Shown here piece after piece: positions 10,147-24,536 of a DNA stretch of 37,999 nt. A program made the position numbers and the translations under genes. This stretch comes from a virus, in the IMG/VR virus record IMGVR_UViG_3300042397_003072, positions 1-37,999 of that record; one strand, 5' to 3'. Below the pieces are notes generated by a model, which ran no database searches, was not told the DNA's origin, and saw only the letters and a list, made by a program, of their open reading frames with translations. Every line of letters begins with the position of its first letter. The first letter of the stretch is position 1.

Positions 10147-11103
10147 ATGCCAAAATATAAATTTAGAAACACAACCAGCAGCGGAACTACTCCGTCCAAC
10201 GGTGCATTGGCGGCTGGAGAAATCGCCATAAACATCGCTAACCAGCGCATTTTTGAAGGCACAGCATCCAACACCACGGTAAAAATCACAGACACCTTGG
10301 CATTGCAAAAGCCCAACACTGTGAGTATCACAGGAGGTTCAGTCTCAGTAACAAATATTGGTACCAGCACTGCTGCTGCTGTAACAGCCAGCACACTAAC
10401 TATAGGGGGGACTGCTGTTTCATCATCAGCCGCAGAACCATCTAACAACAGTGCTACTGCTGTGTCCTCAAGTGCTGGCGCATTTGGCAGAGTGGAAGAA
10501 ATTCGAGGAAAACTCAAAAACGTTCTTACATTTACGTCAACCGGCACGTACACCAAAAGCGGACCAGATGTGCAAAGAATACATGTATTGGTCATGGGTG
10601 GTGGAGGCGGTGGTCGTGCATATTCTGAATGCGGCGGCGCAGGTGGTTATGCTGAAAAAATTATTGATGCTACCAGTGTTACGACAGTGTCAGTTACTAT
10701 TGGTGGTGCCGGCACTGGTGGAGTTTATTTTGGATATAGCCCAGGCGGCGGAACTACCAGTTTTGGCGCTTTTGTATCAGCGTCGGGCGGCGACGGTGCC
10801 AACAGCCACATACAGCACAACGGTGGCCGTGGTGGATTAGGATCCGGCGGTGAACTTAATGCTCGTGGTGGTGGTGGTGGTGGACACAACAACATGGATC
10901 AATATTCTGGCTCATGTGCCCCTGGCGGCGAAGGCGGTATAGGATTTTTTGGTGGAGGAACTCCAGGAGCTCATACCAGCGGTGCACAACCTGCTGATGT
11001 AGCATCGTGGGGTGCAGGCGGTGTAGCAGTTAGCCCGAGTCATAACGGTCAAGGCGGAAGAAACGGCAGAGGCGGAATCTGCATAGTATATGAATATAAA
11101 TGA
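10147..11103 (+). CDS. Glycine-rich tail-fibre adhesin, copy 3
   Basis: 318 residues, with the same N-terminal head (GEIAINIANQRIFEGTASN) and C-terminal Gly-rich domain (FTSTGTYTKSG ... GGICIVYEYK) as copies 1 and 2. The IPTQAAVKSYIDT linker of the other two is replaced by an Ala/Ser-rich stretch, and the domain is more diverged (SECGGAGG in place of GESGGAGG). The start is two bases after the preceding stop. It is probably an alternative or additional receptor-binding subunit. Whether all three assemble in one virion or on different fibres cannot be read from sequence. Confidence 0.7.
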   Translation: MPKYKFRNTTSSGTTPSNGALAAGEIAINIANQRIFEGTASNTTVKITDTLALQKPNTVSITGGSVSVTNIGTSTAAAVTASTLTIGGTAVSSSAAEPSNNSATAVSSSAGAFGRVEEIRGKLKNVLTFTSTGTYTKSGPDVQRIHVLVMGGGGGGRAYSECGGAGGYAEKIIDATSVTTVSVTIGGAGTGGVYFGYSPGGGTTSFGAFVSASGGDGANSHIQHNGGRGGLGSGGELNARGGGGGGHNNMDQYSGSCAPGGEGGIGFFGGGTPGAHTSGAQPADVASWGAGGVAVSPSHNGQGGRNGRGGICIVYEYK

Positions 11104-11116
11104 TTGAGGAACGAAA

Positions 11117-11512
11117 ATGAAAAAAGCATTAATTGATAAAAGATTTTGGACGGTTACACAGATCATAGAATTAGATCAACCTGAATTTGAGACTACTACT
11201 GATTTTATGTGGGTGTCGTGCCCAGATAATTGTGAAACCGGTTGGCCATACAATAATGATACCGGAGTATTCACAGATCCTCATGCCCATAGCAGAGATG
11301 AATTTGGAAATCCTGTAGAACCATTTGTCATGCAACGCATGAGATCATATCCTCCTATGGGTGATCAATTTGATATGTTGTTTAAAGAAATCAAAGCCAC
11401 AGGAACTATTTCACCTACCGGCGAGTGGTTTCAATCTATTCAATATGTCAAAGATAACTTACCAAAGCCTGGTTCAGAGGGCGATCCAGCAAATTATCTG
11501 CCACCAACTTGA
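11117..11512 (+). CDS. Small tail-assembly-like protein of unknown function
   Basis: 131 residues, preceded by GAGGA about 8 bases before the ATG. It contains a soluble acidic core with the segment YPPMGDQFDMLFKEIKATG, which resembles the C-terminal part of XkdW-like and other small proteins found beside phage fibre genes; these are sometimes proposed to help fibre assembly. There is no membrane segment or catalytic motif. It is the last plus-strand gene before the terminator at 11579, and its stop codon directly abuts the stop of the convergent oxygenase gene. Function inferred from position and weak motif similarity. Confidence 0.5.
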   Translation: MKKALIDKRFWTVTQIIELDQPEFETTTDFMWVSCPDNCETGWPYNNDTGVFTDPHAHSRDEFGNPVEPFVMQRMRSYPPMGDQFDMLFKEIKATGTISPTGEWFQSIQYVKDNLPKPGSEGDPANYLPPT

Positions 11513-12109
11513 TTACCATACTCCGAAATTAACTACGATCCTCGATCCAGTAGTTGGTCTTGTGCTTGCATGATATCTAGAGCCGTCGAATATGACGGCT
11601 CTTCCTTTTTTAGGAGTTACTGTTTGAAATACTGTGAGATCCTGAACACGCACTTCTGTGGGAGATATGTCTCTAAATGTTTTATCATAAAACACAGTGT
11701 CTCCATCTGCATCGCACACATAGTATAGTACGTTTAAATGTGAAACTTCTCTGTCAACGTGAGGATTATCCACTCTATTAATATGAGTAGGCAATGGAAT
11801 GGTTAAAAAGCTGCGCACCGCAATTATTTCTGTGATGCGAAATTTGACTTTTTCACAAGCGAAATACACAATTGGCAGAACTAGTCCATATGCCGGACTA
11901 ATAACTCCTTGTTCTCGATCATAGAATTTGTGAGCAAACGCCGGCTTGGATTCCGATAATGTGAGATCTTTCATTTTTTCAACGTCGTAGGTTATATCTT
12001 TCATATAATGCCAATTGACATTTTCTGCTGTTAGATTGTTTTCAATCAAAGTTTGATATTGTTCAGGAACAACATCATCTATTACTACAATATCGTCAAT
12101 TATTAACAT
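11513..12109 (-). CDS. Fe(II)/2-oxoglutarate-dependent oxygenase (HxD type)
   Basis: 198 residues. The double-stranded beta-helix signature is complete: HVD at 117-119 (Fe ligands H117 and D119), distal H180 in GSRYH, and R190 for 2-oxoglutarate in TGSRIVVNF. Enzymes of this fold couple 2-oxoglutarate decarboxylation to hydroxylation or other oxidation of a substrate, often a protein side chain. It is the last gene of the minus-strand island, 16 bases after its neighbour. The plus-strand terminator for the fibre operon is written into its codons for residues 170-177, next to the distal His. The substrate is unknown. Confidence 0.8.
   Translation of the reverse strand: MLIIDDIVVIDDVVPEQYQTLIENNLTAENVNWHYMKDITYDVEKMKDLTLSESKPAFAHKFYDREQGVISPAYGLVLPIVYFACEKVKFRITEIIAVRSFLTIPLPTHINRVDNPHVDREVSHLNVLYYVCDADGDTVFYDKTFRDISPTEVRVQDLTVFQTVTPKKGRAVIFDGSRYHASTRPTTGSRIVVNFGVW
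11579..11611 (+). terminator. Rho-independent terminator of the fibre operon, inside an antisense gene
   Basis: A perfect 9-bp stem (AGAGCCGTC 11579-11587 with GACGGCTCT 11594-11602) has a 6-base loop and is followed by TTCCTTTTTT. It lies about 70 bases past the last fibre-operon stop and within the convergent oxygenase gene, whose residues 170-177 it encodes on the other strand. Confidence 0.8.
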
Positions 12110-12125
12110 AATAAAATATCTCTTT

Positions 12126-12707
12126 TTATAATAGTACGGAATTAAAACTTATTACTATTCTCGGGTCTTGGCCAAAATAAGCAGCGGCATCGTGTAGAAT
12201 CATGCTAGGAAATAAAATAAGTCTTCCAGGAACCACTGATGCAGAGAATCGATCGTCTGCAAATTCAAGCCCGGGTTTCCTTTCCATATAGTATGGCAAG
12301 TACCAATTGTTATGACCACTGCCGTCATCACCTGTGCTTGCATGAAATATTCCCGACCACGTTGAATCATTGTGGTAATGGGGACTGTGATACCCACCAA
12401 ATCTTGTTACATGAGCCCAACTTTCTGTGATGACAAATCTGTAATTAGATCTATTAAAATTATTAATTAGGGTTTCCGACTCGCTGATAATCCATAATTT
12501 TAGATCAGTGAGTGAACTATCTGACTCTAAAAAATCAAATTTTGATTCCCACAAATTGTGTTTTGCATTCGGAGAAATATTCGATTCTATAACGTTTGTC
12601 TTTTCATTGGCTAGACAAGTTTGAATTACGGTATCTCTATGGCTATCAAATTGTGCCCAGTCGCTGATTAGTAATGGAATTTTTCCTAATAAAATTTCTT
12701 GAGTCAT
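12126..12707 (-). CDS. 2OG-Fe(II) oxygenase-like protein (HxH type)
   Basis: 193 residues. The Fe-site region reads HSPHYHND (H110, H112, with D114 close by) followed by WSGIFH. The distal site is H172 in LFPSMILHDA and the 2OG-binding Arg is probably R183 in DPRIVISFN. The pattern H-x-H...SG(V/I)(Y/F)(Y/H) with a later LFPS...H is that of the putative 2OG-Fe(II) oxygenase family PF13759, common in marine phages and bacteria. That family assignment is from memory of the motif, not a search. It lies between two other oxygenase genes, with 16- and 17-base gaps. Substrate unknown. Confidence 0.7.
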   Translation of the reverse strand: MTQEILLGKIPLLISDWAQFDSHRDTVIQTCLANEKTNVIESNISPNAKHNLWESKFDFLESDSSLTDLKLWIISESETLINNFNRSNYRFVITESWAHVTRFGGYHSPHYHNDSTWSGIFHASTGDDGSGHNNWYLPYYMERKPGLEFADDRFSASVVPGRLILFPSMILHDAAAYFGQDPRIVISFNSVLL

Positions 12708-12724
12708 AGTCTATTCAACAAATT

Positions 12725-13315
12725 TCATAGTCGTTCATTTTTAAAAATATCTACAGATATTGTCACAGTCATTACTAATCTATCTTCGTGACTATGATTT
12801 TTTTCTGTCATATGATGTAAAAATCCCGGAAAAAATAACACGTCATTTTGTTTTACTTCAACAGTCTTCCACTCATTTCTATCAATTTTAGGATACCCGG
12901 AGAATGTGTATTGCAATGGATCTCGGAACATAATGTTTCCACCATCAACTGGTTGTTTGAGATAAATTACTATGGTTTGGTGGCACTGACCGTGATCGTG
13001 CTCATCGGTGTACGCTCCTGGAGGATGTAAATTTACCCAACTTCTATGTATAAATCTTGGCATGTCGTTGGCAAAGTTCCATTGATGCCAAACTTCATTA
13101 GCAACTACTGTCAACCATTGTCTCATTTGATCACAGGTTGAATCAAAAATAAGATCGTTGGCAGTGTTAAATGTAGTCCTCCCACCATCTTTTTCTAATC
13201 CGTGTAGACTAGTGTCATCTAATTTTGCACGACATAACTTCACGACCTCACTTAGATCCAGCGGACAGTGTGCCTTAAAAATTAGACTAGGCCAAAGTTC
13301 TACAGGTTCAATCAT
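12725..13315 (-). CDS. 2OG-Fe(II) oxygenase-like protein (HDH type)
   Basis: 196 residues, beginning MIEPVELWPSLIFK like PF13759-type proteins. The metal-site region is SWVNLHPPGAYTDEHDHGQ, giving H106-D107-H108. The distal site is FFPGFLHHMT (H167 or H168) and the 2OG anchor is probably R179 in HEDRLVMTV. A conserved segment, LEKDGGRTTFNT (about 40-51), is shared with the oxygenase at 20166-20894 (LEKNGGKSTYAT), so these two are close paralogues. Its start overlaps the stop of the upstream unknown gene by 4 bases (ATGA), indicating coupled translation. Confidence 0.75.
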   Translation of the reverse strand: MIEPVELWPSLIFKAHCPLDLSEVVKLCRAKLDDTSLHGLEKDGGRTTFNTANDLIFDSTCDQMRQWLTVVANEVWHQWNFANDMPRFIHRSWVNLHPPGAYTDEHDHGQCHQTIVIYLKQPVDGGNIMFRDPLQYTFSGYPKIDRNEWKTVEVKQNDVLFFPGFLHHMTEKNHSHEDRLVMTVTISVDIFKNERL

Positions 13316-14070
13316 GATTCTATGTCTAAATCTTTTTTAGTTAATTTGAATCTATTTTTAGCAGATATAAAACTTCGCCAATTATATCTGCTTAGACCGT
13401 TTAATCCTAGAATATTTAAAAATCTGTTGTTATCTTGATCGTTGTATTTTCTGCTTACAGCATCAATTGATTCTCTGCGAAACGGAATAATCCTTACCAA
13501 CGGCTCTCCCATTTTTATCAAAGTATATTTTTTTTCAAAAAACGCTAGATTTATCGGCATGTCATTTAAGATCAAATCAGTGTCTACTATAGCAGGGATG
13601 GCCTGATAATTTTTATTTGTGTAATATATGGGCATCCAAAAACAACTATATCCGTCTAAGGTTTTTATGTGCCAAGGATTGTTTATTTTTATAACCAATC
13701 TAACATCAAACTGATCTCCTAGAATTTTTTGATATTGATTTTCTGTATGCACGTCATGATTATAATCTAAATTACTGTATTTGATACCTACTTGGTCGCC
13801 TTCAAAACTAATTTCTATATCACACCATGCTGGAATAACATAACCGTACTTTAAAAAAGAATTCAGCGACGGGCATTGTCTAGCTGTTAGTTGATAAGAT
13901 AAATTTTTTCTTTCAAACGGACAAATTTTACCCACAGGTAAATCTTGAAATTCCTCTGGCAATTTGTTTTCTGACAGTTCAACCGGAGCATATTTCCGTA
14001 TAGCCCAATCTTTGCAACTGAATGTTATTATATCTTTTTTTCTAAAAAGATTTTTAAATAGATTTTTCAT
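13312..14070 (-). CDS. Unknown protein paired with halogenase A (same family as 19261-19971)
   Basis: 252 residues with a basic N-terminus (MKNLFKNLFRKK) and no signal peptide or membrane span. I do not recognise a named enzyme. It shares a layout with the protein at 19261-19971: a CP motif (C66-P67) followed by YVI, then about 100 residues later an IP-aromatic region, then (I/L)...G(E/Q)PL with a basic strand (IIPFRRE here, VKFRTP there). Its start lies 17 bases inside the end of halogenase A, and its end overlaps the next oxygenase gene, so the three are translated as a block. The pairing with halogenases suggests an accessory or substrate-handling role; this is inference only. Confidence 0.6.
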   Translation of the reverse strand: MKNLFKNLFRKKDIITFSCKDWAIRKYAPVELSENKLPEEFQDLPVGKICPFERKNLSYQLTARQCPSLNSFLKYGYVIPAWCDIEISFEGDQVGIKYSNLDYNHDVHTENQYQKILGDQFDVRLVIKINNPWHIKTLDGYSCFWMPIYYTNKNYQAIPAIVDTDLILNDMPINLAFFEKKYTLIKMGEPLVRIIPFRRESIDAVSRKYNDQDNNRFLNILGLNGLSRYNWRSFISAKNRFKLTKKDLDIES

Positions 14071-15649
14071 ATTTTGATTTTAAATATTCATTTAGGCTAG
14101 GCAGTGTTTTTACAAATTTTCTGCGATTGTCAAGCATTAGGTCCCATATAGGATAACACTCATTTTTTAATCTATCGAGATAGTCTAGCGATCTATTTCT
14201 ATAAAGTATTCTACAGATTTTAGATTCGTCTAACGGAAGAAAATGCAAGCCAGTTGCTACACACAGCGTGCCGCCCATGTCTTCGTCGTATCTACTCTTT
14301 ATATATTTTCTTTGAATAACATCATCAATGCCGTATGAGGCATATATTCCCAACTGCATGGTTTTTGGCCATTCTTTATTTTTGCAGTGCTTCCAATAAT
14401 CTGTATCATCTCTATGGCTTAGAGCATAATGTAGTGCTACGAATTCAGCAAATGCTCTAAAGTCTCCTCTACACGCTTCATTAAATGCGACCCGATCAAA
14501 TTCGCCGATGTCTTCTCTGCCAAGAGCTTCTACTAAGTTCAATAGGAACTCATGCACAGTGTATAATCCAGAGGACTCTAGTGGCTCAATGAATCCTGCA
14601 GACAGTCCAATAGCACAGACATTTTTATGATAGATTTTTTCATGAATTCCTATACGCATCTTTATATTTCTAAATTCTGCAGTATCTACTATTTCTTTTG
14701 ATTTTTTTACAGCTCTGTGATTCATCAAATAGTCTTTGAACTGATCCAACGCATCGGCATCGTTGATAAATTTATCACTATAAACATATCCCGTGCCAAT
14801 TCTTGACCACAAAGGAATATTCCACACCCACCCGTTCTGTATTGCTGTGCAATTTGTGTATGGTTCGAGCTCTGCTTCTTTGTCAGTAAATGGCACCCGT
14901 GTGGCCCAGGCTGAATTATTTGGTAACAAATCTTCGTAGCTGTCAAAATTCACACCTAGTGCCTTTCCTAGCAACAACGACTGAAAGCCTGTGCAATCGA
15001 TAAACAGGTCTGCAGAAACTGAATCTCCAGAAGATAACACAAGTTTTTCTACCCCATCTGATCCTATTTGGATGTCTGCCACATTATCTCGAATTAGTTG
15101 TACTCCTTTGGGTATGGAAAAATTATCTCTCAACCAGATACCAAATTTTGCTGCGTCAAAGTGATAAGCAACATCTCGATCAAAGTCCCACAGTGGGAAT
15201 TGATTTTCACGGTTGTCACAGATTTTATTATTTTCCGACATGGTCACTGCAGGGAAAAAAGTTTCTGCAAAATTCTGTACCGGGATATCTTTATCTGTGG
15301 CTTTCCTTATAAACCAATCTTGCAGACCGTGTGGAAAATGTACAGGGTCATGTATAGGAACTCCGAAGGGGTAATGGAATGCACCCGAGTCCTTTTTGTA
15401 GAAATCTGTGAATTTTATACTTAATTTATAACTAGCGTCACAGAACTGCATCCAGTCATCGTCTTTTATACCTAGAGAAAACAACCATTCATTTATCTGT
15501 CCTATGGTACTTTCACCTACCCCCACAGTGGGCGAATCGGGGCTTTCGATCACTGTGATTGACTTGTTTGGAAAATTTTTAACTAAGGTAGCAGCACTCA
15601 TCCACCCAGCACTGCCACCGCCCACAATAACAATTTTGTCAATTTTCAT
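14054..15649 (-). CDS. Flavin-dependent tryptophan-halogenase-like protein A (canonical motifs)
   Basis: 531 residues, in the size range of PrnA and RebH. The FAD-binding GGGSAG is at 10-15, with GVGEST at 43-48. K75 in SYKLSIKF aligns with the catalytic Lys79 of PrnA. WVWNIP at 274-279 is the WxWxIP halogenase signature. E358-S359 in FIEPLESSGLY matches the Glu-Ser pair of PrnA and RebH. Family members use FADH2, O2 and halide to make HOX, which the Lys directs onto an aromatic substrate such as indole. A ribosome binding site AAAGGAAC precedes the ATG. No flavin reductase is encoded in this window, so the host or another phage gene would have to supply FADH2. Of the three copies it is the most likely to be an active halogenase. 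Confidence 0.9.
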   Translation of the reverse strand: MKIDKIVIVGGGSAGWMSAATLVKNFPNKSITVIESPDSPTVGVGESTIGQINEWLFSLGIKDDDWMQFCDASYKLSIKFTDFYKKDSGAFHYPFGVPIHDPVHFPHGLQDWFIRKATDKDIPVQNFAETFFPAVTMSENNKICDNRENQFPLWDFDRDVAYHFDAAKFGIWLRDNFSIPKGVQLIRDNVADIQIGSDGVEKLVLSSGDSVSADLFIDCTGFQSLLLGKALGVNFDSYEDLLPNNSAWATRVPFTDKEAELEPYTNCTAIQNGWVWNIPLWSRIGTGYVYSDKFINDADALDQFKDYLMNHRAVKKSKEIVDTAEFRNIKMRIGIHEKIYHKNVCAIGLSAGFIEPLESSGLYTVHEFLLNLVEALGREDIGEFDRVAFNEACRGDFRAFAEFVALHYALSHRDDTDYWKHCKNKEWPKTMQLGIYASYGIDDVIQRKYIKSRYDEDMGGTLCVATGLHFLPLDESKICRILYRNRSLDYLDRLKNECYPIWDLMLDNRRKFVKTLPSLNEYLKSKYEKSI

Positions 15650-15680
15650 AAAGTTCCTTTTGCACTATATAATTATCAGA

Positions 15681-16331
15681 TTATGTTTTGAGGAAAAGGT
15701 TTCCTGAAATAGATATTCTATTTTTATCTGAAGTAAAGAAAGGATAAACAAGGTGTTTGAATTTTGAAGGAAAAAATAAAATAGTCCCCTCACATTCGTT
15801 GTCTGGAAAAAAGGGCAGGGATTGTATTGAACCTAAAACATTAGTAAAAACAAAATTAAAGCTAGATGCCATTGAAAAATTAGAATTTACCACATGCGGC
15901 ATGTTCATTTCATCTTGCAGCTCATACGGTATCTGTATCCAGGACACAAAACTAAAAATACCGCTGTGATCATGCAGCGGATTATATTCATATTTCTTTT
16001 GAAAATTAATCCATACTTTATCCAATATAAACTCTAATGGTTTTTCACAGGGGTAACTAGAAAATATTTCTTTTTGGTAGTTCCATGAAAGAATATACTG
16101 AACTGCCATTTCTAAGATATAAGGTTCCAAATGCTTTACAGACTGTCCCAAATACATCTGAGTCTCTATATGACCTGCGAGACTGTTGTGAATTTTTTGC
16201 GAGTGGTCAGCGGTTGTTTGAATGTGCTCTATGTCTTTTTTAACAGCTGATAACACATCGGCTGGCATCTTAGATAATGAATAACCATAATTAGGAAAAT
16301 GTTTTTGTTCAACTGAAAAATTAGGCGTCAT
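15681..16331 (-). CDS. 2OG-Fe(II) oxygenase-like protein (HDH type)
   Basis: 216 residues. The metal-site candidate is NPLHDHSGIFSFVSWIQIP (H120, D121, H122); the distal site is LFFPSKFKHLVYP (H193), and R205 in SDKNRISISGN is in place to bind 2OG. The sequence between the sites is long and hydrophobic and has lost the SGVYY-type strand of the other HxH proteins, so this is a divergent member. It lies between halogenases A and B, overlapping the end of B by 11 bases, which suggests that it works in the same pathway. Substrate unknown. Confidence 0.7.
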   Translation of the reverse strand: MTPNFSVEQKHFPNYGYSLSKMPADVLSAVKKDIEHIQTTADHSQKIHNSLAGHIETQMYLGQSVKHLEPYILEMAVQYILSWNYQKEIFSSYPCEKPLEFILDKVWINFQKKYEYNPLHDHSGIFSFVSWIQIPYELQDEMNMPHVVNSNFSMASSFNFVFTNVLGSIQSLPFFPDNECEGTILFFPSKFKHLVYPFFTSDKNRISISGNLFLKT

Positions 16332-17814
16332 GGTTATATGTGATTTTTGTCATTGAAGATCTATTCATTATTATTTTTAGAGCTTCTCTGTGAGAAACAT
16401 AAGATTGTTTATCTTCCCATTCCTTGTAAACTTTTATCGCATCTTTAGCAGCAAAGTCTATGTCTTGATTTTGAAAAGATAAGATAGCTCTAATTTTGTC
16501 TCGATCTAGCATTCCCAACCCGTGCATGACCAGCAACCAATTTTGATCTTTAAACATTAAATAAGGTTTGGTAAAAAAAACATGACTAGGTAATGTGTTT
16601 TTAAATATTTCCAAGGTATCTTTATTAAAGTCTGTCATAGTTAACTCTTGACAACTGCGCCAAAATTCACTGTCTGTTCTCTTGGTAAAGTAATGAAGCT
16701 GAACAAAATCAATAATATTCTTGCAGACATTTTCAAATTCAATATTGTATTGTTTGGCTGTGATATCATCACCTGCTTCCCAGAGTACTAAGTGATTGGC
16801 CAAAGATATAGACTGCTGAATAGAAGTACCAATGCTACTTGCTTCAAGTGGCTCAACAAAACTTCCGGATAATCCCAACGCAACACAGTTGGCTATCCAA
16901 AATTTATCAACATAGCCTGCAGAAAATTTTATTTTTTTAGCAATGTCTATGGGATGGTCAAATACAGACTGCGCCTCGGCAACAGCCTGATCTTCAGTAA
17001 TGAACTCGTCATTGTAGACATATCCATTCCCGTATCGTTCTTGGGTTGGAATTCTCCACATCCACCCTGCACTCATTGCCGTGCTGGCAGTGTTGGAGGG
17101 GATATTCTCTGTTCGCGGTGTAGGGAATGCAATAGCAGAATTCATAGGAAGATATTTTTTACAGTCTATCCACTTAGCCCCTAATTTTGATGAAATGACT
17201 CTTTTAAATCCGCTGCAATCGATGAAAAAATCAGCACTGTATTTTTGTTGATGGTTATCTAACAAATACGACACAGCACCGGTTTCATCAAGAACTATAT
17301 CTTCTATGACTGTGTCTATGATTTTTACAGATTTTAAATTGCATAATTTAAGAAGGTACTGATTTAGTTTCTGTGTGTTAAAATGAAACTGATTTACTGA
17401 TGTTTCAAAAGATTCAGTATGTGTGTTATCATGAATATTTTTTGGAATAATTTCATGATGATCATACCCTTCGGCAATCATGTGAGAATATATAAACGGA
17501 AATCCAGTAGGAGCTTCGTGCCCAAATGCAGAATGTAATGAGTGGAAATAATAATCGTTGTCGCCATTCCAATTAATAAATTTAATTCCTGTTTTGAATG
17601 TGGCATCGGTTTCTTTGATAAGTTCATTTACAGAAATTCCACAGATTCTCATAAAACTGGTCCAGTGTTCAGTGGATCCTTCTCCTACTCCAATGATTCC
17701 AATTTCTGAAGATTTTATCACAGTGACTTCGAGATTTGAAAATCTAGATTTAAGTATTAGAGCAGCAATTAGCCCGCTAGTGCCACCACCGAGCACAGTT
17801 AAATTTTTAATCAC
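16321..17814 (-). CDS. Flavin-dependent tryptophan-halogenase-like protein B
   Basis: 497 residues from a GTG start at 17814 that overlaps the end of halogenase C by 8 bases. It has GGGTSG at 9-14, GVGEGST at 42-48, K74 in ATFKTGIKF (PrnA Lys79 position), WMWRIP at 251-256 and E324 in FVEPLEASS (PrnA Glu346 position). The Ser that normally follows this Glu is Ala325. The core is thus that of a functional halogenase with one change in the flavin/halide region. Its sequence between the FAD and substrate regions differs strongly from copy A, which suggests a different substrate. Confidence 0.88.
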   Translation of the reverse strand: MIKNLTVLGGGTSGLIAALILKSRFSNLEVTVIKSSEIGIIGVGEGSTEHWTSFMRICGISVNELIKETDATFKTGIKFINWNGDNDYYFHSLHSAFGHEAPTGFPFIYSHMIAEGYDHHEIIPKNIHDNTHTESFETSVNQFHFNTQKLNQYLLKLCNLKSVKIIDTVIEDIVLDETGAVSYLLDNHQQKYSADFFIDCSGFKRVISSKLGAKWIDCKKYLPMNSAIAFPTPRTENIPSNTASTAMSAGWMWRIPTQERYGNGYVYNDEFITEDQAVAEAQSVFDHPIDIAKKIKFSAGYVDKFWIANCVALGLSGSFVEPLEASSIGTSIQQSISLANHLVLWEAGDDITAKQYNIEFENVCKNIIDFVQLHYFTKRTDSEFWRSCQELTMTDFNKDTLEIFKNTLPSHVFFTKPYLMFKDQNWLLVMHGLGMLDRDKIRAILSFQNQDIDFAAKDAIKVYKEWEDKQSYVSHREALKIIMNRSSMTKITYNHDA

Positions 17815-19279
17815 TACTTCTCCAGTTAGACAGATACGAACACTGCCGTGTTATTAATTCAGCTTCAATCATCAATTGAGAATATTCTCTAAATACTGAT
17901 TCCAATAGATTCTTTCTTTTATAGCATAGTTGTTCTTTTAGAAAATCAAAATTAATTATCTTATTGCCTTGTAGAACTACTGCATAATTTTCAAAAGAAT
18001 ACACTGGAAAATCATCTGAAAATACACCCGATTTCCAATTTGAAATTTTAGCGTTGAGGCTATCTGATAATTTTCGACTTTGCATATCTAGCCAAAAATT
18101 AGAATCTTTTCTTGAAGTTACATAATGTAAATTTATAAAATCTTTAATATCTGTAATTATACCCTGATATTTCTCGTTATGTAAAAATTTAGCATTACTG
18201 TCTTCAGATAGGTTTGGATTCCAATATTCGGAAAGCAGTTTAAGTTGCAGTCCTATCAGCGTATGTCCGGGACTGCCTAATGGTTCGAGGAATCCTGTGC
18301 TCAATCCTATACCGATAACATTTTTCTCCCAAGGATGTAAACTTAAAGAAGGATCCCAAGACATTGATGCAACAGGAGTTATGTTTTTTTTAAAAGTTTG
18401 ATTTATTTCGTCTACTGCTTGATCTGCAGTAATATACGAATTATTATAAACATATCCTCGACCAGATCTGTGATGCAGACTAACATCAAAAGACCAGCCT
18501 GCTTTTAATGCAGTCATTTCAGTATACGGTAGTTCGCTGCTTTCGTCCCACCACGCTATCACAGAATGAACTGGCATTTCACTTTTACAGTCTTCGAACT
18601 GTTGATTTAATGTGTTCTTTAACAGCAATTGTGCAAATCCGGAACAGTCAAAAAACCAATCTGAAGTCAGTTCAGTATTATCTTCTAAGATTAATGATTT
18701 TATTGAACCACTATTTTTCAAATTTGCATTAACAAATTTCTTTTCTATAAGACCAATTCCTTGAGATACTCCTAATTTTTTTAAATAGGCAGCATTTTTT
18801 CTAGAATCAAAATGCCACATGGGAGATACCACAGCAGTCTCATTATTAATGAACGGAGTTTTCTTATCTTTAATTAACTTTGTCGAAACAGACAGATCAC
18901 TAACTGACAAATTTAAAGCCAGGCATCCTGCAATTAAATCATTTTTATTTCCGAATTCCGGATAATTGCAATTGTATCGATTTAGATATCTAGAAAATAA
19001 CGGCTGTGTAAAAAAGCTGTGATCTCCAGACCAATTTACAAATTTACCTCCAAGTTTAGGAAATGCACCTACTTCGTTAGTCCACTCTGGTATCGGAACA
19101 TTCAAAAATTCTAGAAGATTAATAAACGGAACAGTGCAGCTTTCTCCTGCAATTATCGGTTGGGAATTAGGATCTTCGATTACTGCGATCTCTAGATTAT
19201 CCCAATTTTTTTTTAGGAATAATGCTGTTAACCATCCTGCTGACCCACCACCTAATATAGCTATTTTTTTCCGAACCAT
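17807..19279 (-). CDS. Divergent tryptophan-halogenase-like flavoprotein C
   Basis: 490 residues. The fold markers are present: GGGSAG at 10-15, an AGES segment at 44-47, and K75 in GAFPKLGGKFVNW, which lines up with PrnA Lys79. Two halogenase hallmarks are lost. WxWxIP is replaced by WSFDVS (262-267), and the catalytic Glu in EPLES is Gly335 (FLEPLGSPGH). The FAD site therefore looks intact but classical halogenation is doubtful. It may be an altered halogenase, a monooxygenase or a non-catalytic partner. It overlaps the upstream unknown gene by 19 bases and halogenase B by 8, so all three would be produced together. Confidence 0.85.
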   Translation of the reverse strand: MVRKKIAILGGGSAGWLTALFLKKNWDNLEIAVIEDPNSQPIIAGESCTVPFINLLEFLNVPIPEWTNEVGAFPKLGGKFVNWSGDHSFFTQPLFSRYLNRYNCNYPEFGNKNDLIAGCLALNLSVSDLSVSTKLIKDKKTPFINNETAVVSPMWHFDSRKNAAYLKKLGVSQGIGLIEKKFVNANLKNSGSIKSLILEDNTELTSDWFFDCSGFAQLLLKNTLNQQFEDCKSEMPVHSVIAWWDESSELPYTEMTALKAGWSFDVSLHHRSGRGYVYNNSYITADQAVDEINQTFKKNITPVASMSWDPSLSLHPWEKNVIGIGLSTGFLEPLGSPGHTLIGLQLKLLSEYWNPNLSEDSNAKFLHNEKYQGIITDIKDFINLHYVTSRKDSNFWLDMQSRKLSDSLNAKISNWKSGVFSDDFPVYSFENYAVVLQGNKIINFDFLKEQLCYKRKNLLESVFREYSQLMIEAELITRQCSYLSNWRSSD

Positions 19280-19971
19280 GTGCTTGGCCTTAGTTTATTA
19301 AATGAATTGTGTATTTTCCAACTGATCTTAGGAATATAATGTTTGAGAGTCAGACTGCTATTCACAGCATGTTCTAATTGCTCAGTGCGATCAATTTCAA
19401 CCAATTTTATTTTATCTTTAATTCCCGGAGTACGAAATTTTACGTATGCCAACGGTTGTCCCCTAGAAATTTTAATCTCAGGTTCCAACATTTCAAATGT
19501 TGTCACAAATGGTCTGTACCAATTCCCTATATTATAGCTACCGGGGATTGCTCTCCAGGATTTATCAATGTCATTAAAAGGTGGTATCACTTCTATGAAA
19601 ACATCATGATCACTAACAAATACAAAACTATTACTAAGTGCTACTATAGGGTTACCGGTATCGGGATCAAAATCACCCCAATGTAGTCTTACAAACGAGT
19701 TGTGACACTCGTGAGTAAGATCACTGTGTAATACTTTATTAGTGCTATCCCATCGCAATGTCACATCTACAGTGTTTCTTATTACATAAAATTGGTTGAC
19801 ATAATTTGTAAATGCAGGACATTGATTATATTTAGATACACTGTCTTCCCAGGTAGATAATTTTTCTAACTCGTAATGAGCAAGGTCTAGCCACCCATAA
19901 TAGTTAAGTGCATTATTGGTGGTATTATGAGTTTTTTCACCCCAGGCGCAATACCCGACTTTAATTTCCAT
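19261..19971 (-). CDS. Unknown protein paired with halogenase C (same family as 13312-14070)
   Basis: 236 residues, no signal peptide or membrane span. It shares the CP...YVI (C51-P52) and IP...ISRGQPLAYVKFRTP landmarks with the protein at 13312-14070, at similar spacing. Here the gene precedes its halogenase (C) and overlaps it by 19 bases, whereas the other copy follows halogenase A. The centre is rich in His, Asp and Trp (HSDLTHECHNSFVRLHWGD, near residue 83), which could suggest a metal or ligand site, but I see no recognised catalytic motif. Physical linkage to halogenases in both copies is the only functional clue. Confidence 0.6.
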   Translation of the reverse strand: MEIKVGYCAWGEKTHNTTNNALNYYGWLDLAHYELEKLSTWEDSVSKYNQCPAFTNYVNQFYVIRNTVDVTLRWDSTNKVLHSDLTHECHNSFVRLHWGDFDPDTGNPIVALSNSFVFVSDHDVFIEVIPPFNDIDKSWRAIPGSYNIGNWYRPFVTTFEMLEPEIKISRGQPLAYVKFRTPGIKDKIKLVEIDRTEQLEHAVNSSLTLKHYIPKISWKIHNSFNKLRPSTWFGKK

Positions 19972-20176
19972 AATACGACGACCAAAATCCCTGCGGACAG
20001 GCGCCCATTTTTAGTCTTGCCCGAGCAGTGTAAGGCTCATTTATAATTTTGCATATCTGTGTGCCTTCCTGTCTTGCATAACATGTATCACAAATTTCTA
20101 ATCTTTCTGTATACTTGGATATTGGAACTAACAGCACCTTTTCATTATGATGCATCACTCTTGGTTTATTTTTCAT
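19961..20176 (-). CDS. Small zinc-ribbon-like protein
   Basis: 71 residues with four cysteines at 29, 32, 42 and 60, in the order CDTC ... C ... ACPQGFW. The CxxC...C...CPxGxW layout resembles small proteins of T4-like phages with a presumed single zinc site. It overlaps both neighbouring genes (the unknown protein by 11 bases, the oxygenase by 11). No function can be assigned. It could be a scaffold or regulator for the island. It is not a good candidate for a modified precursor peptide, because it lacks a leader/core layout. Confidence 0.55.
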   Translation of the reverse strand: MKNKPRVMHHNEKVLLVPISKYTERLEICDTCYARQEGTQICKIINEPYTARARLKMGACPQGFWSSYYGN

Positions 20177-20894
20177 TGGTTAAATTTTCCTTAAGGTTTC
20201 GTATAATAAATTCAAGATTAAGTATTTTATTATACAAATGTTCAACCTCACTCACGTCATGGCTGACAGTTATATTAGGATACTCTACATTGGATGACAG
20301 ATAGTTTCCGGAATATCCTATATTGAAAGATATTACAATCCTATCCTCCCCTGAAAAATTTTCACCTGTTTTGTGTCTTAGGTATCCTGGGAAAAAAATC
20401 ATATCACCCGTACTTACTTTTACTGCGGTTTCTATTTTTTCTTCTATACAACGAGAAAACGGAATATTAGTAATGCCGTATTCTGCTGGATTAGTGAGTA
20501 TGAGATCACCGCAGTTCTTTTCAGCCTTTAGATAAAAAGTTGCTACCATAGGCATAAGACTGTGCGAATGCTGAACAGTAAAAGAACCAGATTTGTGTAT
20601 ATTTGTCCAACATTGATCTATCCGTGGGCTGAGTCTTTCGTCTATGTCTAAAATTTTCCAATACATCTTTGAATGCAACAATACAAGATTGCACAATTCT
20701 TGCAGATAGTTCGAAGTGTGTAGTTGGTTGTTTGTTGCGTAAGTGCTTTTTCCACCATTTTTTTCTAATGATGACAATTCTGCAGATGCAACATTCAAGT
20801 TTTCTCTGACGACTTTCTCTACATCGTTGATGTTCTCCAGATCATCAATGATGTTAATTTTGTAAATCGGAGTCGAAAACAAATTATGAATCAT
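20166..20894 (-). CDS. 2OG-Fe(II) oxygenase-like protein (HSH type) with a C-terminal helix
   Basis: I chose the ATG at 20894 (MIHNLFSTPIYKINI), typical of PF13759-like proteins, over a GTG four codons earlier. Numbering from the ATG, the motif VQHSH puts metal-site His at about 109 and 111, the distal His is in FFPGYLRHKT (about 174), and Arg in GEDRIVISFN (about 185) is in place to bind 2OG. After the oxygenase core come about 45 extra residues ending in a helix with heptad-like leucines and isoleucines (VEHLYNKILNLEFIIRNLKE), a possible coiled coil for oligomerisation. It is a paralogue of 12725-13315. Substrate unknown. Confidence 0.75.
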   Translation of the reverse strand: MIHNLFSTPIYKINIIDDLENINDVEKVVRENLNVASAELSSLEKNGGKSTYATNNQLHTSNYLQELCNLVLLHSKMYWKILDIDERLSPRIDQCWTNIHKSGSFTVQHSHSLMPMVATFYLKAEKNCGDLILTNPAEYGITNIPFSRCIEEKIETAVKVSTGDMIFFPGYLRHKTGENFSGEDRIVISFNIGYSGNYLSSNVEYPNITVSHDVSEVEHLYNKILNLEFIIRNLKENLTNEK

Positions 20895-21501
20895 CGCGGG
20901 TGTCACTGATTAACTTTTGTTGAGTCAAATACCATTTTTTACTCACAAACGTTTTGTATGAGATATATTTTCGTAATTTTTTACAATCCCGTGTGGGTCC
21001 AAGCCCTCGGTGGGGAATATTGCTGTCAAAAACTAAACAGGTATTAGGCAACGGGTAATAGGTTGCAATAACATTTCCGCTGTCATCGAAGAATTGAAAT
21101 TCTCCTCCCCATTCTGGATTCCACTCTCGGTTCGGAAAATAACAAATAGTCATAAACCCATCGCCCATGTCATTGAAATCTACATCTTTGTCTGTGTGAA
21201 TTCCGCCATCTAAGCCAAATGTTTTTCCTCCTGCAATCGCATGATACATTTTAAACTGATAATCAATAGTCTCAGGACAGATTTCGTGTAATTTATTTTG
21301 TATTTCATAGAATGCCACTTCACTGATCAAATGATGCAGAGAAAAATCAGATTGCCAAAACACAGTGGCGTCTTCATCCCAGAGCTCCGGATTGGTTACT
21401 CTGCCAAACTGCCATACTGGTTTATCTAATTCTGCACACACGTTTACAAATGTATCGGCTCGCAATACATTGGTAAGATAAAAAATTTCTTTAGATTTCA
21501 T
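20884..21501 (-). CDS. 2OG-Fe(II) oxygenase, prolyl-4-hydroxylase-like (HxD type)
   Basis: 205 residues. The site is classical: HTD at 102-104 (in GGIHTDKD), a GGEFQFFDD strand, distal H164 in FDSNIPHRGLGP, and R177 in KKLRKYISYKTF. The strand order WGGEFQFF...FDSNIPHRG is typical of hydroxylases acting on sugar nucleotides or on protein or peptide side chains. A consensus late promoter (21523-21530) and a purine-rich GAGAG ribosome site precede it, so this gene can begin a second transcript of the island. Its end overlaps the next oxygenase by 11 bases. Confidence 0.8.
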   Translation of the reverse strand: MKSKEIFYLTNVLRADTFVNVCAELDKPVWQFGRVTNPELWDEDATVFWQSDFSLHHLISEVAFYEIQNKLHEICPETIDYQFKMYHAIAGGKTFGLDGGIHTDKDVDFNDMGDGFMTICYFPNREWNPEWGGEFQFFDDSGNVIATYYPLPNTCLVFDSNIPHRGLGPTRDCKKLRKYISYKTFVSKKWYLTQQKLISDTRDDS

Positions 21502-21517
21502 GGTGTCTCTCGTTAAG

Positions 21518-22132
21518 TTAGCTATTTATAGGACCTGTCTTGCCCTGTTTAAATAATTCGTCACTCCATTCTGGATAATTCCATTGCTCTGCTTGAATAT
21601 TGGTAAGCAACTGCTCTCTCTGATCAAATTTTAAAAACTCAAAATCTCCACCTTTTTTAACATAATGAAAAAACAGTTGGTGTTGAAAATCTTGCCCGCT
21701 CATGGGATGTCTTAGGTGACTAACTTTGCTGCCTTCATAGATCAATGCATCCCCTATATCCAATAAAAATTCCATAAAATTTTCTTGGCCTTGAAGATAG
21801 ATAGGCCATATAAATTTTTCGTAATCCAATGTTACGGTTAGGCTTATTTCTGCACCCGGCCTATCAAAATGTGGCAACAGATAATCGTTTTCTTGATATA
21901 TGCGACCGTAGGTATATACAGGATACAATTCACAGCCTACAACTTTCTCTACTTTTGGTAAAAGAGATATTAGCTGTTCATTAAATATTCCGTACCAAGC
22001 TGGACTTAGCTTGCATTGAGTATCTGGACTTCTGTAAATACCTTTTTGCAACAGATCTTCCATCTTTCTTGCCATTGAAAAACATTCTTCAGTTGATAAA
22101 AACGCTTTTTCTAATTTGTATAATGAAAACAT
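21518..22132 (-). CDS. 2OG-Fe(II) oxygenase-like protein (HxD, Gln in place of Arg)
   Basis: The ATG at 22132 is preferred to a GTG one codon earlier; 204 residues. The metal-site motif LLPHFDRPGAEIS gives H88 and D90. The distal region GDALIYEGSKVSHLRHPMSG gives H139, followed by QHQLFFHYV, where a Gln (Q152) takes the place of the usual 2OG-binding Arg. This layout (GD.L.Y.G...H.R.P..G....Q.F.HY) is one I associate with a family in marine phages. The co-substrate mode is therefore uncertain even though the Fe ligands are intact. It is 10 bases from the upstream gene. Substrate unknown. Confidence 0.7.
   Translation of the reverse strand: MFSLYKLEKAFLSTEECFSMARKMEDLLQKGIYRSPDTQCKLSPAWYGIFNEQLISLLPKVEKVVGCELYPVYTYGRIYQENDYLLPHFDRPGAEISLTVTLDYEKFIWPIYLQGQENFMEFLLDIGDALIYEGSKVSHLRHPMSGQDFQHQLFFHYVKKGGDFEFLKFDQREQLLTNIQAEQWNYPEWSDELFKQGKTGPINS
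21523..21530 (-). promoter_or_regulatory. T4-like late promoter inside the island
   Basis: On the minus strand this reads TATAAATA, a perfect late -10 element. The predicted start is at about 21517, giving a 16-base leader with GAGAG before the ATG at 21501. It lies within the last codons of the upstream gene, so it would boost the 12 downstream genes, including all three halogenases. Confidence 0.7.
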
Positions 22133-22142
22133 CACTGGTTAA

Positions 22143-22703
22143 TTATAGGTTAATTTTTGAATTAGTTGCAGCTACATAATTAATCACTAGTCTTCTATCG
22201 AAGATACTTGGAGATGAACTGGCATGTAACAAGTTAGAAGCAAATATCACACATTGATTTTTTTTAGGATGTATTTTATCCAAACAATTTCCGTCTTTAT
22301 CAAAAAAATAAGTAGGACCATCGGAGTCATTAACATAATAAATTAATGAAATCATGTTATCTGCTGTGTCGTCAACATGCGGAGGATGGTGTTTGTAATC
22401 AGTTGAATTATTTTTTAACAACTGATTTACTTTGATCCTTCTGTAATTTAATACATGTATGTTTAAATCAGAGAATATTTTATTAGACAGATTTACTACC
22501 ATTTGAGTATACGGCGAGTCATAGCGTCCGTTATCCATTATCGGGTGCACTAATTGAAATGTATCGTAGACCGGTTGAGATGCGGATGCGTGTTCATTGC
22601 CGAATGTAGTTGGAGCGTACCACCAACTGGTAAATTTATCTAAAAAAATACTTTCTATTTCGTTCGCTTGATAATGACTTACACAATTTTCTATAATTTT
22701 CAT
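22143..22703 (-). CDS. 2OG-Fe(II) oxygenase (HxD type)
   Basis: The frame is open upstream, but the start is placed at the ATG at 22703 (MKIIENCVSHYQ), 5 bases after the upstream gene; 186 residues. Fe ligands are H109 and D111 in HHPPHVDDTADNM, the distal His is H160 in FASNLLHASSS, and R171 in DRRLVINYV binds 2OG. The strand after the HxD (SLIYYVNDSDG) and the ending resemble the oxygenase at 11513-12109 (LNVLYYVCDADG, SRIVVNF), so the two are paralogues placed near opposite ends of the island. Confidence 0.8.
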   Translation of the reverse strand: MKIIENCVSHYQANEIESIFLDKFTSWWYAPTTFGNEHASASQPVYDTFQLVHPIMDNGRYDSPYTQMVVNLSNKIFSDLNIHVLNYRRIKVNQLLKNNSTDYKHHPPHVDDTADNMISLIYYVNDSDGPTYFFDKDGNCLDKIHPKKNQCVIFASNLLHASSSPSIFDRRLVINYVAATNSKINL

Positions 22704-22707
22704 AATA

Positions 22708-23319
22708 TTAATCCAACGATATCGCAAGGTTAAATGGTATACTAATCTTATTGGCATCTTGATTATGACTGTTATACCCATGATACACATTGGATTTGAA
22801 CATGATTAGTCTGCCCGGTATGCAATCATATTTCATCATTGAGTAATTTGAATAATTGTCCACTGGAGGTTTTAGGGGAAAATATGCATCTCGATAAGGA
22901 GATCCAAATTCTAAACTGCTATTTGCTGGCGCATCAACATAAAACACTCCGCTAAGAAAAGCTCGACCGGTAGTGCTGTGAATATGCTGTGCATGGTAAT
23001 CATGTTTTCCTATCACATTTACCCACATGTTCAAAAAGTTAACATTGGACGGTAGAATTCCCGGAAAACCTAAAAAATTTAAAAATCCCACAGCCTGATC
23101 TATGATTTGTTCAGATAAATTTCTAAAACTTTCTAAATTATAAAGGTGACCGTAGGTTTGGTGCCAAAAACTTGTTTGTAAAGAACTCTCCCCAAACGGA
23201 TGTGGCACATTTTCTAATTCGTTGATTATTTTCATGCATTGTGATTTATATCCATCGAGGCTATCTAACAGATTGTTGTCGCTGTAATAAACAGTAGTGG
23301 GAAATAAGTTATCTATCAT
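22708..23319 (-). CDS. 2OG-Fe(II) oxygenase-like protein (HIH type)
   Basis: The start is placed at the ATG at 23319 (MIDNLFPTTVYY), which overlaps the upstream stop as ATGA; 203 residues. It has the PF13759-like pattern MWVNVIGKHDYHAQHIHS (H112 and H114) followed by LSGVFYV, then PGRLIMFKSNVYHGYN (H180). At the 2OG-binding position there is a Lys (K191, in NKISIPFN) instead of Arg. The N-terminal half contains SFWHQTYGHLYNL, a shared feature of this subfamily. Coupled translation with the upstream oxygenase is likely. Confidence 0.75.
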   Translation of the reverse strand: MIDNLFPTTVYYSDNNLLDSLDGYKSQCMKIINELENVPHPFGESSLQTSFWHQTYGHLYNLESFRNLSEQIIDQAVGFLNFLGFPGILPSNVNFLNMWVNVIGKHDYHAQHIHSTTGRAFLSGVFYVDAPANSSLEFGSPYRDAYFPLKPPVDNYSNYSMMKYDCIPGRLIMFKSNVYHGYNSHNQDANKISIPFNLAISLD

Positions 23320-23900
23320 CTGAATCTCGGACCGTTGACCCATGTCACAAGACTTTTTCTTGTGCCGGCTGTGATTGGTTTTACTTCATGAATTACAAAA
23401 CTTGGAAATACAATTACTGTGCCAGCCTGTTTAGGGGCAACTGTGCATTCTGAAAGTGTATTTCTATAAAATGTTAGATCTCCTCCTTGGTATTCGTCTG
23501 GACTAGATAGCTGAATAGAAACACTGAGTTTTCTAAATAGATTAAATTTGTACCCGTCGTCAGAATGACTTGTGTAAAAATCCTTGTGTTCAGAATTATA
23601 TTCTGTATATTGTAAATCTTCCATTTCTGTTAAATCGTATTTGTAAAACTGTGAGTTCAAAGAATTAACAATGTCAGCTAGCTTGCGAAACAATTTAGAA
23701 GATGTGTCATCAATCGGTATCCATGATAGTTTGCAGTTGCGCACAGATTTATTGGCTACTCCATTTTCTAGTTCTCCGTTGCCCAATACTAATCGTTGTC
23801 CGATATCGATAATTTCTTGTACTTCAGTTTGGTCAAAACAGTTAGTAGCATAAGCAAACGCTTCGTTCGTGTAATTAAAATCTTTCATTAACCAGGACAT
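23316..23900 (-). CDS. PKHD-type prolyl-4-hydroxylase-like 2OG oxygenase (HxD)
   Basis: 194 residues. This is the most canonical hydroxylase of the set: HSD at 112-114 (TSHSDDGYKF), the YQGGDLTF strand (137-144), then GTVIVFPSFVIHEVKP with H171 and R181 in GTRKSLVTWVNGP. The same motif string occurs in PiuC/YbiX-type PKHD hydroxylases and in prolyl-4-hydroxylase alpha-like domains. The start at 23900 overlaps the upstream gene by 13 bases; an ATG at 23888 (TAATG junction) is an alternative. Proline in proteins is a plausible substrate class for this family. Confidence 0.85.
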   Translation of the reverse strand: MSWLMKDFNYTNEAFAYATNCFDQTEVQEIIDIGQRLVLGNGELENGVANKSVRNCKLSWIPIDDTSSKLFRKLADIVNSLNSQFYKYDLTEMEDLQYTEYNSEHKDFYTSHSDDGYKFNLFRKLSVSIQLSSPDEYQGGDLTFYRNTLSECTVAPKQAGTVIVFPSFVIHEVKPITAGTRKSLVTWVNGPRFR

Positions 23901-24457
23901 CTAACTATCTCCGTATCAAAGCTCACCGCATATTTTATTTCGTTGGTATTTTCACTGTAATGTTCTACCCAACTTGGAAAAAGAATCAGCATATTTTCTT
24001 GTATAGGAATAGCGTATTCTTGTAAATTAAATTCGTTGGTCTTTTCAGTGATTTCGTTAATTTTAAATGGTCCGCAAGGATTGCGGATTTTTAAAAAAAC
24101 ATTGTCCCCTTTGATCAACGGATAGTAAACACCACTAATTACACTCATTTCGTGTTTGTGTGGACGGATTTCTCCTCCTTTGATGTAGATGTTACACCAA
24201 CTATATGAGATAGTAGCTGCTTTGATTCCGTAATCATGCACAAACTTATCAACTTCATCTTGAAAAACTTGCTTGAACTGTGGATTTCTATCTAAAAAAG
24301 AGCTGCTGAGAGATCGATGCCCTTTTTTGATCAGCTGATTTGTATTGAGTTTTTCTTGATCAATCTGGTGTATCAAGAGATCAATGCTACGCTGGCACAC
24401 AGATTCAAGTGAAATTATCTTAACAGGAATAGGAAAAATATTTAAAAGTTGTTCCAT
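23888..24457 (-). CDS. 2OG-Fe(II) oxygenase-like protein (HKH type), first gene of the island
   Basis: The start is at the ATG at 24457 (MEQLLNIFPIPV), not at the upstream end of the open frame, because the late promoter at 24483-24489 predicts a transcript starting near 24477. It has 189 residues. Motifs are WCNIYIKGGEIRPHKHEMS (H100 and H102) with VISGVYYP, then LILFPSWVEHYSEN (H166), and Lys (K175) in place of the usual Arg. It belongs with the PF13759-like group. As the first gene of the island it is divergent from the fibre gene at 24550, with 92 bases between the two start codons. Confidence 0.75.
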   Translation of the reverse strand: MEQLLNIFPIPVKIISLESVCQRSIDLLIHQIDQEKLNTNQLIKKGHRSLSSSFLDRNPQFKQVFQDEVDKFVHDYGIKAATISYSWCNIYIKGGEIRPHKHEMSVISGVYYPLIKGDNVFLKIRNPCGPFKINEITEKTNEFNLQEYAIPIQENMLILFPSWVEHYSENTNEIKYAVSFDTEIVRCPG

Positions 24458-24482
24458 TTTGTAATGGTAAAGTGATAATGAA

Positions 24483-24489
24483 TATTTAT
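24483..24489 (-). promoter_or_regulatory. Late promoter heading the halogenase/oxygenase island
   Basis: Reads ATAAATA on the minus strand. The predicted start is about 24477, leaving a 20-base leader to the ATG at 24457 with no clear Shine-Dalgarno. It is divergent from the late promoter at 24537-24544. Confidence 0.65.
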
Positions 24490-24536
24490 TGTTGTTTTTT
24501 TTAAAAAGTTTAAGACTGAGTCCTACGTAACACATG

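Follow-up and report, generated by a model that had tools for sequence, protein, structure and literature searches.

VirX1, a flavin-dependent halogenase of cyanophage Syn10, has an open active site and accepts large phenols and diverse aromatics (PMC8407142). Phages with more than one halogenase copy have been published, as have genomes with as many as 24 2-oxoglutarate (2OG)-dependent oxygenases (PMC3037559, PMC9964418). A 10-gene cluster of cyanophage S-SSM6a with a halogenase and 2OG dioxygenases was read by Iyer et al. in 2021 as a metabolite or capsule pathway (PMC7824862). The published suggestions for the cyanophage oxygenases and halogenases are nitrogen balance, DNA repair and antibiotics, and they leave the substrates unexplained. 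Glycine-rich domains have been described as the receptor-binding tips of Pam3, of S16/PP01 and of haloviruses (PMC9608196, PMC12892980, PMC8651126).

Here we analyse a 17-gene island of halogenase and oxygenase genes in the IMG/VR virus record IMGVR_UViG_3300042397_003072, of which positions 1 to 37,999 form the analysed stretch (hereafter the window). No DNA-level match to the window was found among isolated phages. An earlier interpretation of this DNA by sequence inspection (hereafter the sequence-only reading) took the locus to be without a described counterpart, VirX1 to be the single known phage halogenase, and marine phages often to carry one or a few 2OG oxygenases. In the light of the publications cited above these statements are wrong or too strong, and islands of the same kind are present in Syn10, P-RSM6, S-RIM44 and P-TIM40. 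The locus is not unique; what is new here is the linkage of halogenase genes and oxygenase arrays to fibre genes with a PF21722 domain.

Linkage to glycine-rich fibre genes

Three genes ahead of the island (7678-11103) encode fibre proteins with a C-terminal PF21722 domain (37.0, 32.7 and 32.8 bits; cut-off 24.3). Linkage was assessed in 27 whole T4-like genomes, of which 20 carry a PF04820 (halogenase) gene and 7 carry none, and their fibre hits were merged to 22 loci; the radius was 10 kb and the null distribution came from 20,000 random rotations. A halogenase gene lay within 10 kb of 14 of the 22 loci, against 2.6 expected, and 59 oxygenase genes lay within this distance, against 24.6 expected. 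Neither value was matched in any of the 20,000 rotations, and the fibre neighbourhood noted in the sequence-only reading is thus strongly non-random. In 10 of the 11 isolate genomes with a VirX1-type halogenase gene, a glycine-rich fibre gene lies at a distance of 1.0-2.0 kb from it. Across IMG/VR and isolates together, a glycine-rich open reading frame (ORF) was found near 36 of 52 VirX1-type loci but near only 1 of 18 loci with other halogenase types (p 3e-6).

A fibre gene, an oxygenase array and a phrog_2954 gene also stand in a row in S-SM1 and P-RSM4, which have no PF04820 gene, and in S-SSM5, which has none near the fibre. Because these three phages keep the arrangement without a fibre-adjacent halogenase, the core pairing is that of oxygenases with the glycine-rich fibre, to which halogenases were added in some lineages. 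Island and fibre genes point towards each other in the window and in its nearest relatives, and in the same direction in Syn10 and S-RIM44. The pairing is kept through this inversion, and adjacency therefore outlives operon structure.

Two further loci stood out for their fibre domains. One contig (L028, G014) encodes six PF21722 domains within 19 kb, one of which ends some 30 bp away from a VirX1-type halogenase gene. The region from 98.4 to 100.7 kb of S-SSM7 (L146-L148) encodes Cys-rich PF21722-like domains, with 23-24 Cys in about 210 amino acids and 14 in 129 amino acids.

Proposed function

We propose that the enzymes of the island post-translationally oxidise and halogenate the adhesins at the fibre tips, and we give this proposal an even chance of being right. 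It agrees with one of the two functions suggested in the sequence-only reading, the decoration of virion proteins. The island would be a mobile virion-maturation module, whose two to three flavin halogenases and roughly eleven small oxygenases of the non-haem iron type would work late in infection. Their substrates would be the glycine-rich tips with which the tail fibres encoded by the neighbouring genes bind the receptor. Exposed residues would be hydroxylated or oxidised in other ways by the oxygenases, and aromatic ones would be halogenated, with FADH2, 2-oxoglutarate, Fe(II) and O2 supplied by the host. Two accompanying proteins with a predicted dUTPase-like fold could serve as trimeric binding or scaffold subunits; VirX1 itself is a trimer. 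The host-contacting surface would be altered or stabilised, and adsorption might be affected. No other single account is as simple, since modification of the fibre tips covers the selective gene content, the linkage across inversion and change of phage backbone, the halogenase with its open active site, and the absence of genes for scaffold synthesis.

Candidate sites may be recognised in the fibre domains. One Tyr and two His residues are invariant in all 23 aligned halogenase-adjacent domains, and in two homologues that do not adjoin a halogenase gene other residues stand in place of the Tyr and of the last His, a contrast that is suggestive only. His, Lys and Ser are enriched in the halogenase-adjacent domains, an enrichment confounded by phylogeny.

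Several observations weigh against fibre-tip modification. In S-B64, the exception among the 11 isolates, the VirX1-type halogenase gene lies between recombination and clamp genes, far from the fibres, and seven contigs of at least 8 kb with a VirX1-type halogenase show no glycine-rich ORF. Fibre loci lacking a halogenase have only modestly more oxygenase genes than expected (16 against 7.9, a value reached in 691 of 20,000 rotations), and the tested genomes are related, so that the rotation p-value overstates their independence. The Tyr/His contrast involves only two outgroup sequences, which are related to each other, and the halogenase-adjacent domains show no overall enrichment of Trp or Tyr (p 0.38 and 0.34). 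No report of hydroxylation or halogenation of a phage fibre, or of a modified fibre residue, was found in the openly searchable literature. Moreover, fibre neighbourhoods are also insertion hot spots.

The last point leads to hitchhiking, according to which the fibre-neck region tolerates insertions and gathers unrelated oxygenase and halogenase genes with separate functions, such as nitrogen/2OG balance or DNA repair. Such roles, in the form of 2OG/NtcA effects and DNA repair, were proposed by Sullivan et al. (PMC3037559); every genome tested has further oxygenase genes dispersed over its whole length, and the island is low in GC relative to its neighbours in nearly all loci examined. We nevertheless consider hitchhiking improbable, since the island is selective in what it contains (hardly anything but halogenase, oxygenase, U7084 and phrog_2954 genes), its gene order has persisted although synonymous divergence is saturated, and the same content recurs beside fibres in a different phage lineage.

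Another target altogether is decidedly improbable. This could be a different virion protein, a polysaccharide or lipid of the host envelope, or a receptor in the outer membrane, modified for instance to block superinfection. Capsule decoration was suggested as an alternative by Iyer et al. (PMC7824862), the substrate range of VirX1 would allow other aromatic targets, and large fibre proteins at 259-7050 and 24550-26562 also adjoin the island region in the window. However, the linkage is specific to glycine-rich fibre genes, and the island contains no sugar- or lipid-active enzyme.

Going beyond the window, we suggest, tentatively and with somewhat less than even confidence, that at least two unrelated marine phage lineages share a mobile tailoring system that modifies fibre tips, creating host-recognition surfaces with non-standard amino acids. 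VirX1 would have its natural role in this system, as would the cyanophage oxygenase arrays. If true, halogenation and multi-site oxidation would join the processes that shape phage host range, and the islands would provide a source of protein-modifying halogenases. The linkage to fibre genes singles out one concrete candidate substrate, which standard proteomics of virions can test.

Composition, integrity and age of the island

As the sequence-only reading had stated, the ORF listing of the 38-kb window contains 17 adjoining minus-strand ORFs here (11513-24535; Table 1), which overlap or are separated by short gaps. The end coordinate given in the sequence-only reading agrees with the start of the first island gene, which is probably an internal ATG near 24460, because the orthologue in contig L010 has 189 amino acids. 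The island consists of three PF04820 halogenase genes (HAL1 to HAL3), four PF13640-type and six PF13759 oxygenase genes, one phrog_2954 gene, two genes for U7084 proteins and one for a 71-amino-acid Cys-containing protein. Its GC content is 35%, compared with 44-47% in the flanks, and a similar contrast was seen in most related loci examined.

Contig L010 has orthologues of all 17 genes in identical order. Between both loci, synonymous divergence (pS) is near saturation at 0.63-0.80 and non-synonymous divergence (pN) is low at 0.09-0.25, values that indicate purifying constraint on all 17 genes. Near-saturated pS, low pN and kept order therefore argue for an old functional unit and not an accident of assembly. 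The gene order of the window was found again in the independent contigs L008, L010, L011/L012 and L088, which excludes the assembly artefact that the sequence-only reading had named as a possible refutation. Recent tandem duplication of the oxygenase genes was rejected, as the nearest relative of each lies in another phage and not within the island, where the best paralogue has 34% identity. By these comparisons, each island oxygenase represents a separate old lineage.

Searches with Pfam and PHROG profiles detected no carbamoyltransferase, methylase, synthetase, precursor-peptide gene or transporter among the 17 island proteins, nor did Pfam profiles detect a scaffold-building enzyme in the island. 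A precursor peptide concealed in the intergenic gaps was rejected, as the gaps are too short. The statement in the sequence-only reading that synthetase, precursor peptide and flavin reductase are lacking thus stands for the island, although for flavin reductase the absence holds only for the 38-kb fragment.

These absences bear on the main rival explanation, that a small molecule, such as a halogenated amino acid-derived metabolite, an antibiotic or a signal, is built or tailored to benefit the infected host. Such a product was predicted by Iyer et al. for the S-SSM6a 10-gene cluster with its carbamoyltransferases (PMC7824862), PrnA-like cyanophage genes were read as antibiotic protection (PMC2984593, PMC9964418), and HAL1 to HAL3 match free-tryptophan halogenases in the PDB. 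We regard a small molecule as unlikely, since the genes listed above are missing and since it leaves unexplained why the island tracks glycine-rich fibre genes on two backbones.

The T4-type late promoter TATAAATA occurs twice in the window, with 2.6 sites expected, and sigma-70-like and terminator-like sites occur in chance numbers. One copy of TATAAATA, at 24537-24544 (+), stands directly ahead of the start at 24550, in a window where its count is at chance level. A strong terminator-like hairpin at 11579-11602 (+), placed for the fibre transcript, falls within the 3′-terminal part of the last island gene, which runs on the other strand.

Table 1 Features of the island and of the adjoining fibre genes in the window
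Feature	Position	Strand	Basis
Fibre protein, C-terminal PF21722; proposed substrate, Tyr194/His224/His247	7678..8637	+	Pfam, domain alignment
Fibre protein, PF21722; proposed substrate, Tyr380/His410/His433	8639..10144	+	Pfam, domain alignment
Fibre protein, PF21722; proposed substrate, Tyr194/His224/His247	10147..11103	+	Pfam, domain alignment
Small phrog_1787 protein	11117..11512	+	PHROG, gene-order comparison
PF13640-like 2OG-Fe(II) oxygenase-type, phrog_274, HxD	11513..12109	-	Pfam, PHROG, motif
PF13759 oxygenase, HxH	12126..12707	-	Pfam, PHROG, motif
PF13759 oxygenase, HxH	12725..13315	-	Pfam, PHROG, motif
U7084: DUF6065/phrog_7084-like, dUTPase-like fold	13312..14070	-	PHROG, predicted structure
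HAL1: VirX1-type flavin halogenase, catalytic motifs complete	14054..15649	-	Pfam, PDB match, motifs
PF13759 oxygenase, HxH; closest isolate relative in S-SM2	15681..16331	-	Pfam, motif
HAL2: flavin halogenase, catalytic motifs present, separate clade	16321..17814	-	Pfam, motifs, tree
HAL3: halogenase homologue, Lys79 kept, EPLGS (Glu to Gly), WSFDV for WxWxIP	17807..19279	-	Pfam, motifs
U7084 paralogue, dUTPase-like family, motif Asp lost	19261..19971	-	PHROG
71-amino-acid Cys-containing small protein, phrog_13558	19961..20176	-	PHROG, order kept in L008, L010, L011/L012, L088
PF13759 oxygenase, HxH	20166..20906	-	Pfam, PHROG, motif
PF13640 oxygenase, HxD	20884..21501	-	Pfam, PHROG, motif
2OG-fold protein (predicted), 'ferrochelatase' label phrog_2954, H89-x-D91...H140	21518..22135	-	PHROG, alignment, predicted fold
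PF13640 oxygenase, HxD	22143..22790	-	Pfam, PHROG, motif
PF13759 oxygenase, HxH	22708..23343	-	Pfam, PHROG, motif
PF13640 oxygenase (phrog_61), HxD	23316..23900	-	Pfam, PHROG, motif
PF13759 oxygenase, HxH; start probably near 24460	23888..24535	-	Pfam, PHROG, motif, L010 orthologue

Halogenases

All three halogenase-like proteins match PF04820 over most of their length (HAL1 353, HAL2 341.5 and HAL3 264.5 bits, cut-off 21; E 1e-78 to 1e-105). The GxGxxG motif, the catalytic Lys (K79), WxWxIP and the catalytic Glu (EPLES) are all present in HAL1 and HAL2. HAL3 keeps K79 and reads GWSFDVSL at the WxWxIP site and FLEPLGSPG at the position of the catalytic Glu, with Gly instead. The orthologue in L010 has the same change and those in L008 and L088 a similar one; the Glu is kept in L011/L012 and L068. 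The three proposed halogenases thus stand as family members, but because HAL3 lacks the catalytic Glu probably only HAL1 and HAL2 are ordinary enzymes. HAL3 may be slow or repurposed.

The best PDB match of HAL1 is VirX1 (PDB 6QGM; E 1.6e-106, about 37% identity), and both fall into the same large clade of the halogenase tree. Halogenase homologues were found in 78 phage records. A pattern-based, non-exhaustive scan of genome contigs for a cellular source gave only relatives with 30-35% identity (Nostoc, Alteromonas, Asticcacaulis and similar), which are without oxygenase arrays or U7084. The halogenase genes of bacterial relatives (L173-L197; Alteromonas, Asticcacaulis and others) occur mostly as tandem pairs.

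Oxygenases and accompanying proteins

The count of eleven 2OG-oxygenase-like proteins was upheld. Nine exceed the curated cut-off of PF13759 or PF13640, and the protein at 11513-12109 reaches 26.6 bits against a cut-off of 27 and matches phrog_274 at 6e-36. The eleventh, the phrog_2954 protein, has no Pfam match; its residues H89, D91 and H140 show no variation among 24 homologues, and its structural model (predicted local distance difference test score, pLDDT, 92) matches prolyl-4-hydroxylase and other 2OG folds at about 1e-8, which places it as a predicted oxygenase-fold protein. With regard to the HxD/E...H metal triad of the 2OG-Fe(II) oxygenase superfamily, HxD is present in this protein and in all four PF13640 proteins. 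In the six PF13759 proteins the motif reads HxH, which is also found in 114 of 122 relatives; judged from these alignments, HxH instead of HxD is the rule for the family in this sample.

In PHROG, phrog_274 is labelled 'DNA endonuclease V' and phrog_2954 'ferrochelatase', while both proteins are 2OG-oxygenase-like here. These labels are probably propagated mis-annotations, in the case of phrog_274 because the same proteins match PF13640.

The two unknown proteins that the sequence-only reading had recognised as related are indeed a pair, now placed as DUF6065/phrog_7084-like (U7084). A structural model with pLDDT 74 matches a dUTPase-like fold (Foldseek E 5e-5, Z 11.5, root-mean-square deviation 5.1, 127 residues aligned), whereas no significant match to the Pfam dUTPase profile was obtained (one of 29 members hit PF00692, at E 0.12). 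The model supports U7084 as a divergent family with a predicted dUTPase fold. In three loci (L017, L027 and L075) a VirX1-type halogenase gene is surrounded by four U7084 copies, and no glycine-rich fibre ORF was detected there. A halovirus homologue, HSTV-2 ORF40 (L198:6854-7723), lies beside thymidylate synthase and about 1.4 kb from the glycine-rich protein ORF35 (26% Gly). The small protein described earlier as zinc-ribbon-like does contain Cys residues and belongs to phrog_13558; the zinc-ribbon label itself is putative.

The predicted fold of U7084, its halovirus homologue next to thymidylate synthase and the 'DNA endonuclease V' label of phrog_274 would suit nucleic-acid modification, with AlkB/TET-like oxygenases and dUTPase-fold proteins that sanitise nucleotides. 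This is very improbable: the TET/JBP and AlkB profiles of Pfam are unmatched by the island proteins, no DNA-modification gene lies nearby, and the phrog_274 label is itself doubtful. To our knowledge, halogenases have no role in DNA.

Phage backbone and apparent transfer

The tail sheath and the neighbouring structural protein of the window have their nearest isolated relatives in Phosso, Atu_ph07 and PA5oct, at 34-41% identity, and similarity to Kyanoviridae sheaths is limited to about the last 180 of 1161 residues. By these similarities the backbone is jumbo-like, not Kyanoviridae, and the combination of glycine-rich fibre and island genes is present on two distant backbones. The sheath is shared with contigs L012, L068 and L069 at 54-67%, and the sheath-neighbour protein with L008, L012, L068, L069 and L088 at about 49-68%. 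A large fibre protein of the window resembles cyanophage fibres. HAL1-type genes on the jumbo-like backbone occupy two positions in the halogenase tree, one sister to Syn10 VirX1 (support 0.998) and the other near Sf-CH11 and S-B64. Because of this cyanophage-like fibre and the two tree positions, fibre and island appear to have crossed backbones at least twice.

The structural backbone (27222-37689) represents an uncultivated jumbo-like lineage, possibly infecting picocyanobacteria. Its sheath gene (32018-35503) is unusually long (1161 amino acids) and is followed by two tail-tube paralogues (35506-36156 and 36219-37322), and a deoxynucleoside monophosphate kinase gene (31014-31685) lies amid the structural genes.

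Comparison with known systems

The S-SSM6a/S-SSM7 10-gene cluster resembles the island as a cyanophage combination of a halogenase with several 2OG dioxygenases, but differs by its carbamoyltransferases, other biosynthetic enzymes and another halogenase clade (PMC7824862); among the 17 island proteins neither a carbamoyltransferase of the S-SSM6a type nor an amino-acid methylase was found. Phosso, Atu_ph07 and PA5oct, the nearest isolates by backbone, are not among the listed phages matching any of the three halogenases.

In Syn10 (L006), VirX1 (10001-11593), a second halogenase, U7084, seven oxygenases and phrog_2954 are encoded directly after two glycine-rich fibre genes and phrog_1787. The differences are the Kyanoviridae backbone, the co-directional orientation, two halogenases instead of three, and the lack of the 71-amino-acid protein. 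S-RIM44, P-RSM6, P-TIM40, S-WAM1 and Sf-CH11 likewise combine glycine-rich fibre gene(s), halogenase(s) and an oxygenase array, but have one to two halogenases, fewer island oxygenases and another gene order; the P-RSM6 locus overall has two halogenases and nine oxygenases. A phrog_1787 gene lies between the fibre genes and the island in most of these isolates (S-RIM44, P-RSM6, P-TIM40 and S-WAM1), as it does in Syn10 and the jumbo-like contigs. The genes of these isolate islands are mostly annotated 'hypothetical' or misleadingly named.

The closest counterparts are the IMG/VR contigs L008, L010, L011/L012 and L088, which share the gene order of the window including the 71-amino-acid protein and HAL3. 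L010 differs in having 11 profile-level oxygenases, and L011/L012 in having four halogenases and in keeping the HAL3 Glu; L008, L012 and L088 share the backbone of the window as well.

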